The translations under genes and the position numbers were made by a program. Shown here piece by piece: positions 15,285 through 54,725 of a stretch of DNA of 64,000 nt. The stretch lies in the NCBI GenBank assembly GCA_020061705.1, contig JAGUXT010000042.1:1-64000 (forward strand), written 5' to 3'. The notes below the pieces were generated by a model. It had not been told where the DNA came from and searched no databases. It worked only from the letters and a program-made list of their open reading frames with translations. The stretch is from Halothiobacillus sp. GTDB taxonomy: Bacteria > Pseudomonadota > Gammaproteobacteria > Halothiobacillales > Halothiobacillaceae. Within the stretch, counting starts at the first letter, position 1. Every line of letters begins with the position of its first letter.

Positions 15285-15385
15285 GGACTTACGCAAAACC
15301 GCCCCAGTGGCGTTCAAACACCTCGCCGTACTAAATGGTACTGGCATCAAAGCTTTGCCTTGCTGGAACACTTTTGCGTAAGTCC
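15285..15385. mobile_element. MITE-like element, GGACTTACGCAAAA family copy 1 (101 bp)
   Basis: GGACTTACGCAAAACCGCCCCAGTGGCG...GCTGGAACACTTTTGCGTAAGTCC; terminal inverted repeats. Confidence 0.8.
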
Positions 15386-43833: not shown

Positions 43834-44559
43834 CTACACCAACCGCAACCACGCCGGAAAACTTGCCCGCCGCTCGGCATGACGAATGCCACGATCCAGA
43901 AGCAATGCACCCGGAAGGCGTGCCTCCAAAGCCTGCCAAAAGGCCGGGCTGTGGTTGAAATGATGCAGATGATTCAGTTCATGGTGCAGTACATAGTTCA
44001 TTTCAGCAGGCTCAAGCCACAACAGGCGGGCGCTTAAATTGATGCGCCCGGCGCGCGAGCAACTGCCCCAGCGGGTGTGATTCCAGCGTATGCCGCTGCC
44101 TTGCAGCGGGTCGTTGTGAATTTCGGCAAGCTGGTGCAGCGCAGGGAGAAGCTGCGCCTTGGCATGGGCGATAAACCAGCGCTGCAGCAGGCTCCAGATC
44201 TGTTCACCCTCACCCCGGAGCGAGAGTTGACGCTGTGCAGGGTCAATGTGGAGTTGCGCGCGAGTCGTAGTGGCAAGGTGAACGAGCTGCCAGTGCTCAT
44301 CCAAAGCGGGCAGGTGAATGTGTGCGGGTAGCTGGTGTTCTGGCCAGATTGCATCAGCATCGGGTAAATGCGCTTGCCGGGCGTGTAGCCTGGCATCAAT
44401 CCATGCACGGTGCTGCTGAATAATACCCAGCGCCTGGTGTGCGCTGAGACGTTTGGGGGTGACGATTTCCAGCCCGCGCTGGGGGTGGATGCTGACCAAA
44501 ATGCGCTTGGCGCGTTGCGACAGACGCACCTGAAACGGCGGCGGCCAAGGCTCCGGCAT
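43834..44559 (-). CDS. YgjP/SprT-like zinc metallopeptidase (DUF45)
   Basis: MNYVLHHELNHLHHFNHSPAFWQALEARLPG HExxH-type motif (HHELNH). Confidence 0.85.
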   Translation of the reverse strand: MPEPWPPPFQVRLSQRAKRILVSIHPQRGLEIVTPKRLSAHQALGIIQQHRAWIDARLHARQAHLPDADAIWPEHQLPAHIHLPALDEHWQLVHLATTTRAQLHIDPAQRQLSLRGEGEQIWSLLQRWFIAHAKAQLLPALHQLAEIHNDPLQGSGIRWNHTRWGSCSRAGRINLSARLLWLEPAEMNYVLHHELNHLHHFNHSPAFWQALEARLPGALLLDRGIRHAERRASFPAWLRLV

Positions 44560-45357
44560 TCAGAACGACTCAGGGCGGGAGAAACGGTCAGCCAGAAAAC
44601 GCTCATTGGCCAACAGTTGTTGGGTGTCATTTTCAGCGAGTGCGGCGAGGCTGCTTTGCACTTCTTCATTCAAGGTGTTGAGCTGCGCGACAAAGACCTG
44701 ACGCGGGGTGCGGCCATCGGCGAGTTTGTGCATACGCCGGTAGGCCACGGGCAGACGCAGGTAGTTATCCAGGGTTTCTGGCAGGTAGTCGAGAATGGTT
44801 TGCCGCAGGGTGAAGGCAGTGCGGTCACCTGCGCCTTGTGTCTCCAGTAAAGGCAGGGTTTCGCGCAGGCTTTCGATCAGGCGATCAAAGCTTTCGGCGC
44901 GCTCGGCGGTGAGGCCTTTTTGTGCGCGCTGCTGCAAGGCATCCAGCGCATCATGCAAATCCATTTGCGCCTGTGACATGGGGTTGGAACGGGGCGGCTG
45001 GGGCGCGATGAGGAAGCCGGCAAGATACAAGCCGGGCACGATTAGCCACCACCACTCACCAATCAGGCCGCTAAAATACAGACCCAAGCCAAGCAGTGCC
45101 AGCACGCTGCCTAGCAAGTTGCCGTTGCTGTACAGCCATACCCAAAACCTGTGCCGAGAGCTTGGGCGGGTAAGGGAGCGCTGTTCTTCTTTCATTTGAT
45201 GTTCTTCCGCATTTTTTTCGGCGAGTGCCTTTTGAAGCTCGGCTTTTTCTTGGGCGAGTTTGTTGAGTTCGGCAGTTTTTTTGTGCTGGGCGGAAAAAAA
45301 CGACCATGCCCCAAATAATGCAAAAAAGCCGATAAGAAGTTGGATAAAAACACGCAT
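44560..45357 (-). CDS. Membrane protein, possibly XpaC-like
   Basis: N-terminal TM plus coiled coil, two further TM segments, C-terminal helical region ILDYLPETLDNYLRLPVAYRRMHKLADGRTPRQVFVAQLNTL; TelA-adjacent. Confidence 0.55.
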   Translation of the reverse strand: MRVFIQLLIGFFALFGAWSFFSAQHKKTAELNKLAQEKAELQKALAEKNAEEHQMKEEQRSLTRPSSRHRFWVWLYSNGNLLGSVLALLGLGLYFSGLIGEWWWLIVPGLYLAGFLIAPQPPRSNPMSQAQMDLHDALDALQQRAQKGLTAERAESFDRLIESLRETLPLLETQGAGDRTAFTLRQTILDYLPETLDNYLRLPVAYRRMHKLADGRTPRQVFVAQLNTLNEEVQSSLAALAENDTQQLLANERFLADRFSRPESF

Positions 45358-45366
45358 GGGTCGGGT

Positions 45367-46980
45367 TTATTGGTAGCCACGTATCGCTTTGAAAGCAGTG
45401 CTGAGATTCTTGTTGCCATCGAAAACCTTGCCTCCGGTCATGTCGGCAATCTGCTGCATGGCTTGGGTGTCGGCATCGCCAAACAAGATGGGAAAGGTTT
45501 TGATCTTGCGTGTATCAGCGGGTAATTGTGCGAAAAATGCGCGGAAGTCGTCGAAATCCATGCCGTTATTGTTGACTCCATCTGTCATCAACACCACGGA
45601 ATAATAACGGTTGGGCTGCTGCTGTTGGGCAACATAAATTTTGTGGTAGGCCTCGGCCAGCGCACTGTAAATCGCTGTCCCCCCTCCCGGCGTCAGGTCT
45701 TGGGCAAATTGGCGTGCCGGTGCCAAGCTGGCTTCCTTGCCCGCGCCGCTGCCGATGGTGAAGTCTACCGCAGGCTCGACGATATTGCGGAAAGGCAGGA
45801 AGCTGAGTTCTTCGCGTTCGCGGAAGCTGGAGAATTGGCCGCTAAGCGAGGTGTCGCCTCCCATCAGATTCAACAAGGCTTGGCGCAGGGCGGTAATGCG
45901 TTCGCCCTGCATTGATCCAGAAAGGTCGATCACGAAATAAGCATGAGCAGGGATGCGCTGCTCATCCAGATAGCTGGTCAGAATGCGATCCACGACCGAG
46001 CGTTGGCCGGGGAAGGGCAGTTCGATCAGCGTCTGGCTGCCAAAACGTGCTTCGAGCGGGATGCTGGGCAGAATCGGACGGCGGTCGGTGTCCTTCATCA
46101 GGCGTTGCTGGATGGCTGGGGTTTTGAGCCAGGCCACCACTTTGTCGTAGTCAGCGCGTTTTTTGGCATCCAGCAACAACAGCGGATAGTCCGCCGTGAC
46201 CACGCCCTCACGCGGGTAGATCAGCGTCAGCGGCTCTTTTAATTGCCCGCTTTGGTTAAGTTGCAACAACACGGATTCGTAGTTGATAAGCCCGTCGAGG
46301 CTTGCTTGTTCGCGTACAAAGGCTTCACTTAACCAGCCGGAGGAGCCTGCCGTGAGGCGTTGGCCTTTGAAGAAGTCCTGTACCGTTTGCTGCTGGGGGG
46401 CGGTCAGCGTGAAGTTTTCCGGGTCGCTGGAGAGCGCGGCAATCAGCGCAATCAGCGCCGAAAAACCGCTGTTGGAGGAGGTCGGATTGGTCATGGCGAA
46501 TTTGAATTCGCCCTTGGCCGCGCGCGCGGCCAGATCGCTCCATGAAGGCGCGGTTTTGTCCCAACCCAGGGCTTTGGCTCTGGATTGATTGACGCCAAGA
46601 ATCACTGGCGAAAGTGCGATTTTCTCGCGCGCAACGACGCGGTTGCGTGCGCCTTCGAGAAGTTCAAGATATTTGGCGTGCGAGAACCACGCCAGCGGGT
46701 AGTCCGCGCCCTGCGCCAGTTGCTCGGCGCCATCCAGTGTGCCGGTGTAGACCAGCTTGAGGCGCACACCGGTGTCTTTCTCCAGTTGCGGCAACAGCGG
46801 CTCGATATCCTTGAGTTCAGAACCGGCGAGTACGCGCAAAGCGCGGCTGTCGTTTTGCCCATCGGGTTGGGGCGCGTTGGATTTGCCGCCAAACCATGAC
46901 CATGCGATCAGTGCGATGATCACAACCACAATTAAGTTGAAAAGATTGAACTTAGACTTAGGCGTAGTGGTGCTATTCAT
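45367..46980 (-). CDS. Membrane-anchored solute-binding-like + VWA domain fusion protein
   Basis: TM IVVVIIALIAWSWFGG; SBP-like RALRVLAGSELKDIEPLLPQLEKDTGVRLKLVYTGT; VWA MIDAS AYFVIDLSGSMQGERI and VVLMTDGVNNNG. Confidence 0.85.
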   Translation of the reverse strand: MNSTTTPKSKFNLFNLIVVVIIALIAWSWFGGKSNAPQPDGQNDSRALRVLAGSELKDIEPLLPQLEKDTGVRLKLVYTGTLDGAEQLAQGADYPLAWFSHAKYLELLEGARNRVVAREKIALSPVILGVNQSRAKALGWDKTAPSWSDLAARAAKGEFKFAMTNPTSSNSGFSALIALIAALSSDPENFTLTAPQQQTVQDFFKGQRLTAGSSGWLSEAFVREQASLDGLINYESVLLQLNQSGQLKEPLTLIYPREGVVTADYPLLLLDAKKRADYDKVVAWLKTPAIQQRLMKDTDRRPILPSIPLEARFGSQTLIELPFPGQRSVVDRILTSYLDEQRIPAHAYFVIDLSGSMQGERITALRQALLNLMGGDTSLSGQFSSFREREELSFLPFRNIVEPAVDFTIGSGAGKEASLAPARQFAQDLTPGGGTAIYSALAEAYHKIYVAQQQQPNRYYSVVLMTDGVNNNGMDFDDFRAFFAQLPADTRKIKTFPILFGDADTQAMQQIADMTGGKVFDGNKNLSTAFKAIRGYQ

Positions 46981-47145
46981 CGTGGTATCTCTTTTACATT
47001 CTTTAACTATGGGCGCCCGATTGTTTGCTTTTGTAGCCCGGATTGGCATCCGGGACTGGGCTCGCATCACACTCGGTAAGACATTTCCCGGATTACGCTT
47101 TGCTTCATCCCCGCTACAACAGCCAAAAGACTGTGAATCAGGTTA

Positions 47146-48375
47146 TTACAAAGTCAATTCGCTAGGCATATTCAAACGAGCCACTTCGGTTTGCGCTTTT
47201 TCACCACGCACACGGTCGAGGTAGGTTTGTGATTTGTGAATTTCGGTGTTCAGCACATCGACGGTTTGCTTCATGTTTTCCAGGGCTTTGACTTTGTAGG
47301 TCGCCATGTCGTCCATGGTGGCGTAGATGTCGGTGAAGGCGCGCTTGAGCGAGTCGATATTCACGGCGGCGCTGGAGGCTTGCTTGTGAATATCGGCGGA
47401 TTGCTGGCGCAGCATTTTGGCGGTGGATTCGATCATGCCGCTGGTGGTGGCGTTGAGCGCGTTGATCTGATCCAGTACCAGTTTTTGGTTTCCTAGCGCC
47501 TGGGCAACCATGACAGCGGTGCGCAGGGCGGAGACGGTAGTGGTGCTGGCGCGATCCACACCTTTAATCAGCTCGAAATTGTTTTTGCGAATCATGTCCA
47601 AGGCCAGATAACCCTGGATGGAAACGGCAAGCTGTGTGAGCAGGTCCTGTACTTTTTGACGCGCGTTGAACAGCAGGTCTTCCTGCACGATGCGCGCTTT
47701 TTCGGGATCAACGGCTTGCAGTTCACCGACACGTGCAACGATCTTCTGGTCAATGGCCTGGCCGATTTCGGCGTATTCACGCAGCTTGCCCATGCTGGCC
47801 CACAAATTGGCTTTTTCCTGTTCAATCGCCGCGTTGTCCTTGCGCAGTTCGTCCTGGCCTTTGTAGAGCGTTTCGAGGATTTTATTCAAATGTCCCTGGG
47901 CGGATTGATAGCGCAGGAAGAAGTCGCGCAGCTTGTCGCCCCAGGGAATGATGCCGAACAGCTTGGCAGGCGCAAGCAAGTCACCCTGACTGCTGGGATC
48001 GAGGTCTTCCATGGTTTTGCGCAGGTCAACCAGTGAACGTGTGACCGGATGGGCTTCGTTGAAAAAACCGCCTTCCAGATTAGCCATTGGGCGTTCGAGC
48101 ATACGGTTGGACATGTTGGCTGTGGCGCGGATCTCGGCATCGCCCATGGTGCGTAGTGCGTCAGCCTTGCTGCGGAACTCGTCGCCCTGCGCATCCAGAT
48201 TGAGGATGGCATTGACGAAGTTTTCGGCGCGCGCGTCCAGTTCCTGACGTTGCGCTTCGGAAAGCGGCACGAGCTCGCGCGATTGCGGTGCGGATACAGC
48301 GGCTACGGGAGCCGGTGGGGTGAGGTGTTCGGGAGGGGTTAGTGTTGTGGTGGTTGGTGTGGTCAGTTCATTCAT
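47146..48375 (-). CDS. TelA family (toxic anion resistance) protein
   Basis: NDAx helical TelA pattern: RVGELQAVDPEKARIVQEDLLFNARQKVQDLLTQLAVSIQGYLALDMIRKNNFELIKGVDRASTTTVSALRTAVMVAQALGNQKLVLDQINALN. Confidence 0.92.
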   Translation of the reverse strand: MNELTTPTTTTLTPPEHLTPPAPVAAVSAPQSRELVPLSEAQRQELDARAENFVNAILNLDAQGDEFRSKADALRTMGDAEIRATANMSNRMLERPMANLEGGFFNEAHPVTRSLVDLRKTMEDLDPSSQGDLLAPAKLFGIIPWGDKLRDFFLRYQSAQGHLNKILETLYKGQDELRKDNAAIEQEKANLWASMGKLREYAEIGQAIDQKIVARVGELQAVDPEKARIVQEDLLFNARQKVQDLLTQLAVSIQGYLALDMIRKNNFELIKGVDRASTTTVSALRTAVMVAQALGNQKLVLDQINALNATTSGMIESTAKMLRQQSADIHKQASSAAVNIDSLKRAFTDIYATMDDMATYKVKALENMKQTVDVLNTEIHKSQTYLDRVRGEKAQTEVARLNMPSELTL

Positions 48376-48410
48376 GGTTGTCTTTTCCTGTGGTAGCAAT
48401 GGTTGAATTA

Positions 48411-48510
48411 GGACTTACGCAAAACTGCCCCAGCGGCGTTAAAGCGCCTCGCCGTACTAAGTGTACTGTCTTCGTCACTTTGCCTTGCTGGAGCATTTTT
48501 GCGTAAGTCC
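48411..48510. mobile_element. MITE-like element, GGACTTACGCAAAA family copy 2 (100 bp)
   Basis: GGACTTACGCAAAACTGCCCCAGCGGCG...GCTGGAGCATTTTTGCGTAAGTCC. Confidence 0.8.
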
Positions 48511-48529
48511 TGTGAATAAATTTTGGTGG

Positions 48530-49615
48530 TTATTTCATCTGTTGCTCGATGGCTTGAATCATGCCTTCGAGGGTTTCATAGCTGGGTGGGTCAATGATTT
48601 GTACCAGTTGAGCGGGTACGGCGAGCTTGCGGCTCTCGGCTTGCGCCTTGAATGCGGCGGTATCGGTGGTGCGGAAGCCGTGTTCGGTGGCAAGCTTTTG
48701 TAACTCCGGGTCGTCACTCAGTACTTGCCCCAGACGTGCACCATTTTCACTCAGTCCGACAAGGACATGGCGGGTGAACAGGCCGGGCTCGGGGTAGAGC
48801 AAGGCCATGTCCGGGCGGATGCCCGAAGGTGTCTTGAGCGCTTCATGGATGAATTGCGATTCATAAATCATCACCAGCGGCGAGCTTCCCATACCCATCG
48901 ACAGGTAGTTTTCCAACGGGCCTTCAGATGAGTATTCGGTGTAACCCTGGCGCAGGAAAAGGGGAAGTAACTTGGGTATCACGCCATCCATTTCCTCGCG
49001 TGATGCCACCACGCGCTGACCGTTGGCAATGTAGCTCATCAGCGCAAGGTACATGGCGGCCGAGTTGGACTTACGCACGTCGGTAGTACGAATCAAGACC
49101 GATTTATTGACTGGGTAGGCTTCGCTGTTTTTCAGGTCTTTCCAGCGCGTTTCCTGCTGCGTCCAGGCAAAATAACGATCCAAATCAAACCAGTAATACA
49201 CGCCGTCTTTTTCACGTACCACGCCGTTGGCTTCAAGGATTTTGGCAATCGGCTGCCATGAGGCAATGACCATTGGTGTGAAAAACGGCACATAGGTCGG
49301 GCGTTTGCCTACACCCTGCAGGATTTTGTCGGCAGCAGGTTGCCCGGCTGGAAAGGCAAAATCGTATTTTTTCAAGTCGAAGGCCGTGGCAATCTGGCGT
49401 GAGCCCGCTTTTTCCACCTTGACGATCAAGTCTTGTTTGAGTAGTGCCTGTTGCACACGCGGGTCGGCAAAGAAAGCCTCTTTTTCCGAGCCAATCAGGC
49501 CAGTGATCGTGGTTTGTGCCTTGAGTGCGCGTTGTCCATTCATGGATGTGTAGATGGCGTAGCCAAGACCGGCAAGCAAGAGGAATCCCAGTACGGGGGC
49601 GAGGAGGCGATTCAT
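48530..49615 (-). CDS. Membrane-anchored extracellular solute-binding-like protein
   Basis: N-terminal TM anchor; ITGLIGSEKEAFFADPRVQQALLKQDLIVKVEKAGSRQIA..YDFAFPAGQPAADKI; upstream of telA. Confidence 0.7.
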   Translation of the reverse strand: MNRLLAPVLGFLLLAGLGYAIYTSMNGQRALKAQTTITGLIGSEKEAFFADPRVQQALLKQDLIVKVEKAGSRQIATAFDLKKYDFAFPAGQPAADKILQGVGKRPTYVPFFTPMVIASWQPIAKILEANGVVREKDGVYYWFDLDRYFAWTQQETRWKDLKNSEAYPVNKSVLIRTTDVRKSNSAAMYLALMSYIANGQRVVASREEMDGVIPKLLPLFLRQGYTEYSSEGPLENYLSMGMGSSPLVMIYESQFIHEALKTPSGIRPDMALLYPEPGLFTRHVLVGLSENGARLGQVLSDDPELQKLATEHGFRTTDTAAFKAQAESRKLAVPAQLVQIIDPPSYETLEGMIQAIEQQMK

Positions 49616-49654
49616 TGTTGTTGTTTCCTCTGCAACAGTGATTGCAACAAATTA

Positions 49655-49718
49655 GGATTTACGCAAAACCGCCCCAGCGGCGTTCAAGTGCCTTGCTGGA
49701 ACGTTTTTGCGTAAGTCC
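49655..49718. mobile_element. MITE-like element, GGACTTACGCAAAA family copy 3 (64 bp, internally deleted)
   Basis: GGATTTACGCAAAACCGCCCCAGCGGCGTTCAAGTGCCTTGCTGGAACGTTTTTGCGTAAGTCC. Confidence 0.8.
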
Positions 49719-54457: not shown

Positions 54458-54725
54458 GGACTTACGCAAAAGCTCTCCTGCAAGGAGTTGTTTTGGGGAG
54501 CTTGCTCCTTTGAAAAAGGGTAAGGATTTGATTGCTCTTCCCCCTTTGGAAAAGGGGGACTGAGGGGGATTTAAAAGGAGTTGGTTTTGGCTGAGCCCTG
54601 CAAATCCCCCCTAACCCCCCTTTTGCAAAGGGGGGGGGAATTTAGAGCTTGGCGGACTTTTGCACAGAGGCGAGTTCATCAAGGCGACGCGTTCGAACGC
54701 CGCTGACGCGGTTTTGCGTAAGTCC
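54458..54725. mobile_element. MITE-like element, GGACTTACGCAAAA family copy 4 (268 bp composite)
   Basis: GGACTTACGCAAAA...TTTTGCGTAAGTCC ends enclosing a CCCCCTTT/AAAGGGGG palindrome cluster (54536-54642). Confidence 0.65.

Follow-up and report, generated by a model that had tools for sequence, protein, structure and literature searches.

TelA proteins are tied to tolerance of tellurite, bacteriocins and cell-wall antibiotics by no known mechanism. In Ter systems (TerB, TerC, TerD, TerF-VWA, TelA) TelA occurs together with a VWA protein, and in the Firmicutes XpaC-TelA (YaaN) pair, i.e. B. subtilis xpaC-yaaN, L. monocytogenes lmo1966-lmo1967 and L. lactis llmg_1115-1116, it accompanies a small membrane protein with a helical domain. 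Published work on the latter ties TelA to envelope stress: xpaC-yaaN belongs to the sigma-W regulon (PMC3498285), membrane-protein overproduction in Lactococcus raises the XpaC-like gene 10.3-fold and telA1 3.4-fold (PMC3139573), and mutation of Listeria lmo1967 (telA) increases sensitivity to nisin and tellurite (PMC12791056, PMC11765107). TelA has also been viewed as a component of a sub-membrane structure, and an anti-phage role has been suggested for both Ter and TelA genes (PMC7824862).

Here we describe a four-gene unit in which TelA is encoded together with two solute-binding-protein (SBP)-like proteins, one as a fusion with a VWA domain, and a membrane protein with a helical domain (TM4). 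The unit appears to operate as an enlarged version of the XpaC-TelA module, and not in the manner of a Ter operon. It combines TelA with a helical-domain membrane protein, as the Firmicutes pair does, although that pair has no described SBP or VWA partner and TM4 is not demonstrably XpaC; it shares TelA and a VWA protein with Ter systems, but lacks TerD. We found no description of the four-gene unit in the open-access papers searched, and an earlier mention elsewhere is possible. The operon supplies candidate partners for TelA outside the membrane, in it and beneath it, conserved across phyla, making the input and the target of TelA a testable question, and it defines an SBP family absent from Pfam and an unannotated family of membrane proteins.

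A conserved four-gene unit

The operon lies on contig C20 of a 2.27 Mb Halothiobacillus genome, for which the closest named relatives are MAGs carrying the label Halothiobacillaceae or Halothiobacillus, within the window, i.e. the whole 64,000-nucleotide stretch of DNA analysed. All of its genes are on the minus strand, in the order SBP1 (48530..49615, 361 aa), a membrane-anchored protein resembling type II periplasmic binding proteins; TelA (47146..48375, 409 aa), predicted to be soluble; the SBP/VWA fusion (45367..46980, 537 aa), with an N-terminal transmembrane (TM) anchor; and TM4 (44560..45357, 265 aa), followed by a YgjP-type metallopeptidase gene (43834..44559). The preliminary description of this DNA reported these as five co-oriented genes with no ABC permease or ATPase nearby, and both statements hold: all five open reading frames are present, and no permease or ATPase is recognisable among those at 40-54 kb. 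The starts at 46980 for SBP/VWA (a longer GTG start at 47070 was rejected) and 48375 for TelA agree with homologues. TelA matches PF05816 at E=2e-89 (300.4 bits against a gathering cut-off of 30), has no predicted TM segment and is the only TelA in the genome. A promoter scan found no regulatory signal at the operon (one site, with 2.9 expected by chance). Five TerD matches in the same genome form a cluster of their own, at 10445-15347 of contig C55 (L175).

Searching plasmid records by tblastn with SBP/VWA and SBP1 as queries located full-length relatives of both, side by side and at ~36-50% identity, in Variovorax, Sphaerotilus, Nonomuraea and Deinococcus. A profile built from four SBP1 sequences and searched against 84,980 species genomes gave 404 SBP1 relatives, of which the best 80, i.e. 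not a random sample, were taken for analysis of their loci. Amongst the 63 loci from other genomes in this best-scoring set that had enough downstream sequence, the exact order SBP1 - TelA - SBP/VWA - TM4 occurs in 57, with TelA present in 60, SBP/VWA in 62 and TM4 in 62. Median spacings between successive genes are 2, -22 and 2 bp, indicating that co-transcription, often with gene overlap, is likely. Conserved co-occurrence of the genes in other genomes had been set beforehand as a test on which the original proposal could fail, and this neighbourhood is strongly kept in distant genomes.

Complete sets are found in isolates of both Pseudomonadota (Variovorax, Acidovorax, Derxia, Methylovulum, Plasticicumulans) and Actinomycetota (Amycolatopsis, Microbispora, Planotetraspora, Rhodococcus), and all four genes are present in two Deinococcales MAGs; copies labelled as Chloroflexota, Dormibacterota, Bacteroidota, Verrucomicrobiota and Cyanobacteriota are all from MAGs and possibly mis-binned. 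A Deinococcus isolate plasmid carries the unit without TelA and Methylococcaceae loci carry it without an adjacent TelA, suggesting that TelA may be separable from the remainder. Pairwise-distance matrices for SBP1, SBP/VWA and TM4 correlate with one another at r=0.91-0.95 and with that for TelA at r=0.76-0.83, shared species history contributing to both sets of values. Within its own class the unit is rare: across 229 genomes, SBP1 and full-length SBP/VWA occur only in the host genome itself, TM4 occurs in two genomes and TelA exceeds its cut-off in 23. Nearly every genome has different genes at the borders of the unit. Taken together, we consider that the four genes almost certainly constitute one functional unit.

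Two adjacent genes were considered as further members and rejected. The metallopeptidase (PF01863, YgjP, E=9e-35, with the HExxH motif as HHELNH) directly abuts TM4 and had been counted as part of the cluster, but it is conserved beside the unit only in loci of the host family (L033, L034, L036, L045, L047) and is best regarded as a neighbour outside the core. An upstream SDR gene lies close to SBP1 in relatives of the host, and elsewhere is found only at greater distance.

Paralogous binding modules with predicted tethers

SBP1 has no significant match to any Pfam or NCBIfam family. Its AlphaFold2 model, generated with 32 homologues, has a mean pLDDT of 90.7 and a pTM of 0.84, with a single N-terminal helix as the anchor, and Foldseek matched this model to solute-binding proteins including SubI (sulfate), FutA, PotD, ModA and sugar binders (best E=8.2e-10, probability 1.00, TM-scores 0.4-0.65). 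On this predicted structure we are sure of the fold class, a type II periplasmic binding protein, whilst TM-scores in this range leave the class of ligand unfixed. An SBP fold for this protein was the second point on which the preliminary description had staked its proposal, and the modelling and fold search bear it out. Against PDB sequences, the SBP1, TelA, TM4 and SBP profiles matched weakly or at a level expected by chance.

In the SBP/VWA protein Pfam identifies SBP_bac_11 (E=5.3e-18) and VWA (E=5e-10) domains. Profile comparison aligned SBP1 with the SBP half of this protein over 294 columns (97.4% probability, E=1.4e-11); the two are accordingly paralogous, and the operon contains a duplicated binding module. 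Motifs common to both are GSE near the start, TD/TN..SNS, SS, YE and YP. In 37 SBP1 sequences S43, G71, S72, S183, Y251, E252 and Q254 are invariant, with corresponding motifs in SBP/VWA, and from their sequence conservation the shared motifs may line a pocket. As a separate observation, the SBP1 proteins of two Alphaproteobacteria (L135 7250-8338, L136 7323-8426) begin with an RR motif resembling a Tat signal, and RR is found near the start in 10 of the 37 SBP1 sequences.

The intact DxSxS MIDAS originally noted in the VWA domain is present as D352/S354/S356, together with T435 and D467, and all five residues are invariant in 42 SBP/VWA homologues. A cysteine occupies the lipobox column in at least 90% of aligned homologues, with the strict motif in 30 of 42, and the host protein has a TM segment in place of the lipobox; from either type of N-terminus the VWA domain is predicted to be exported and tethered. 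More distant SBP/VWA proteins, of ~25% identity, are encoded on Streptomyces and Miltoncostaea plasmids (L041 7686-9506, L043 7758-9464), where neither SBP1 nor TelA was detected beside them, indicating that a wider SBP/VWA family exists.

TM4 and the TelA lineage

TM4 likewise has no significant Pfam or NCBIfam match. Its conserved part is a membrane hairpin followed by a helical domain, whilst the N-terminal ~65 residues, which form an extra helix, occur only in the host genus and near relatives. The AlphaFold model is all-helical with a pLDDT of 90.9 but a pTM of 0.56, and a fold search returned nothing at E<=0.001. An XpaC-like tail had been suggested for this protein; this likeness is not statistically established, with hhalign probabilities of 37.5 and 19.8 and no match to PF10112 among 42 members of the TM4 family, whereas in profile comparison PF10112 proteins are matched at 98.3% by the XpaC-like proteins that other TelA operons encode. 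In two Alphaproteobacteria (L135, L136), however, the gene order is TelA-SBP/VWA-XpaC-SBP1, with a genuine PF10112 protein between SBP/VWA and SBP1 and with TelA alongside. TM4 therefore holds the position of XpaC, whether or not the two share an origin. Second copies of TM4 occur in two loci (L110, L070), that in L110 directly after TelA.

We compared TelA sequences in a quick tree of 104 rows, several on long branches, so that its details are provisional. In this tree the TelAs of the operon form one group, save that one gene represented by two loci (L019/L139) is nested inside it. A branch with 100% support places the TelAs of operons encoding OmpA, VWA and ABC proteins (L137, L138), which are the closest clade to those of the operon, on the same side as the latter, with the TelAs of the alphaproteobacterial four-gene loci and of the gammaproteobacterial XpaC-TelA-SPFH-zinc ribbon operons (L004-L015) on the other side. 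Two TelA branches that are distant from each other are thus found with the SBP pair, and the membrane partner differs between them. The L004-L015 operons resemble the present unit in placing an XpaC-like membrane protein beside TelA, as in the TM4-TelA pairing, but differ in their SPFH and zinc-ribbon partners (assigned by sequence inspection) and in having no SBP or VWA protein. L137 and L138 unite SBP-like, VWA, XpaC-like and TelA genes, as does the operon, but encode VWA and SBP as separate proteins, link SBP-like domains to OmpA and include an ABC permease and ATPase. In one further locus (L139, 10442-15141), from a genome in which no SBP1 was detected, a TelA of the operon clade lies beside genes for an MscS channel and for a protein that joins a PspC domain with two stretches of TM4 type, which points to a link between TM4-TelA and membrane stress.

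A proposed envelope-spanning complex

We propose, at a probability of about one half, that the operon encodes a single envelope-spanning protective complex based on TelA. In the proposed mechanism the two SBP modules, that of SBP1 and that of SBP/VWA, would be located on the outer side of the inner membrane, where they would bind an identical or a related ligand; that this ligand may be an anion is hinted at by the strict conservation of Ser, Asn and Tyr-Glu positions and by similarity to, amongst others, binders of sulfate and molybdate. The VWA domain would join the SBPs to one another, or to a partner in the envelope, in a metal- and ligand-dependent manner, TM4 would relay the resulting state to TelA, and TelA would act as a coiled-coil scaffold under the membrane, strengthening the envelope so that it withstands stress from membrane-active agents or oxyanions. 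Complex formation, ligand type, signalling direction and protective output are what we infer from these data, and the proposed link to envelope stress is drawn by analogy with other contexts of TelA. The preliminary description envisaged an envelope-stress or ligand-sensing complex; an SBP-VWA-membrane-TelA assembly spanning the envelope continues to be the best reading, whereas its Ter-type, metallopeptidase and XpaC components are unsupported. More tentatively, the unit might represent a new class of transmembrane ligand-response complex, in which paired SBPs come together over a ligand on the outer face of the membrane and thereby cause the TelA scaffold inside to assemble. Were this so, TelA would gain its first defined input, through a pair in which one SBP carries an integrin-like metal-dependent adhesion domain.

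The SBPs might instead be transport receptors that feed a permease encoded elsewhere, with TelA, TM4 and VWA assisting or gating uptake. Their fold is common to the receptors of ABC transporters such as SubI, ModA and FutA, as is the Pfam family, and the permease and ATPase of L137 and L138 show that related TelA operons can include transport genes. Nevertheless, the permease and ATPase that would accompany the SBP of an ABC importer are absent from the locus in the window and are not conserved at its variable flanks elsewhere, where ABC ATPases account for 5 of 88 flanking proteins. The operon SBPs further differ from ABC-transporter SBPs in being duplicated and tethered, with one fused to VWA, and we regard a role in transport as unlikely.

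It is also conceivable, if decidedly unlikely, that the SBP modules have lost ligand binding and play a structural part, as the arms of a constitutive scaffold in the envelope that VWA and TelA hold together. Fusion of SBP-like domains to OmpA peptidoglycan-binding domains in related TelA operons is consistent with such a role, as is the common action of VWA domains in protein assembly, but the scattered invariant positions of SBP1 and the recurring motifs in SBP/VWA resemble a selected pocket.

An anti-phage or mobile-element defence function would fit the patchy distribution of the unit, its several plasmid copies, the proximity of one copy to a Wadjet locus in Variovorax and the role against phages proposed for Ter and TelA genes (PMC7824862). 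We consider it improbable: PADLOC gave no match for the five proteins, the 88 sampled flanking positions contain no consistent defence genes, the commonest models there, mad3 (5 proteins) and mad8 (4), are likely generic cross-matches, and no viral copies were found in IMG/VR. Finally, a canonical Ter-type tellurite resistance operon, the assignment suggested by a TelA beside a VWA protein and by TerD genes elsewhere in the genome, is very improbable, as no Ter gene is linked to the unit (all five TerD matches are on C55), no Ter family is among the 25 commonest families of flanking proteins, and the operon's VWA, part of an SBP fusion, is predicted to be exported whilst Ter VWA proteins are cytoplasmic.

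Repeat elements at the locus

Four MITE-like palindromes, with ends GGACTTACGCAAAA/TTTTGCGTAAGTCC, are present in the window at 15285-15385, 48411-48510, 49655-49718 and 54458-54725, and the end motif has 8 matches in the window against 0.58 expected. The SBP1 gene has one of these on either side: that at 48411..48510 (ends GGACTTACGCAAAA) lies between SBP1 and TelA, and a second copy (49655..49718) lies upstream of SBP1. The gap between TelA and SBP/VWA (46981-47145) contains a further short inverted repeat (GTAGCCCGGATT...), and repeat insertions may explain why gaps of ~150 bp are found here where the same genes touch or overlap elsewhere.
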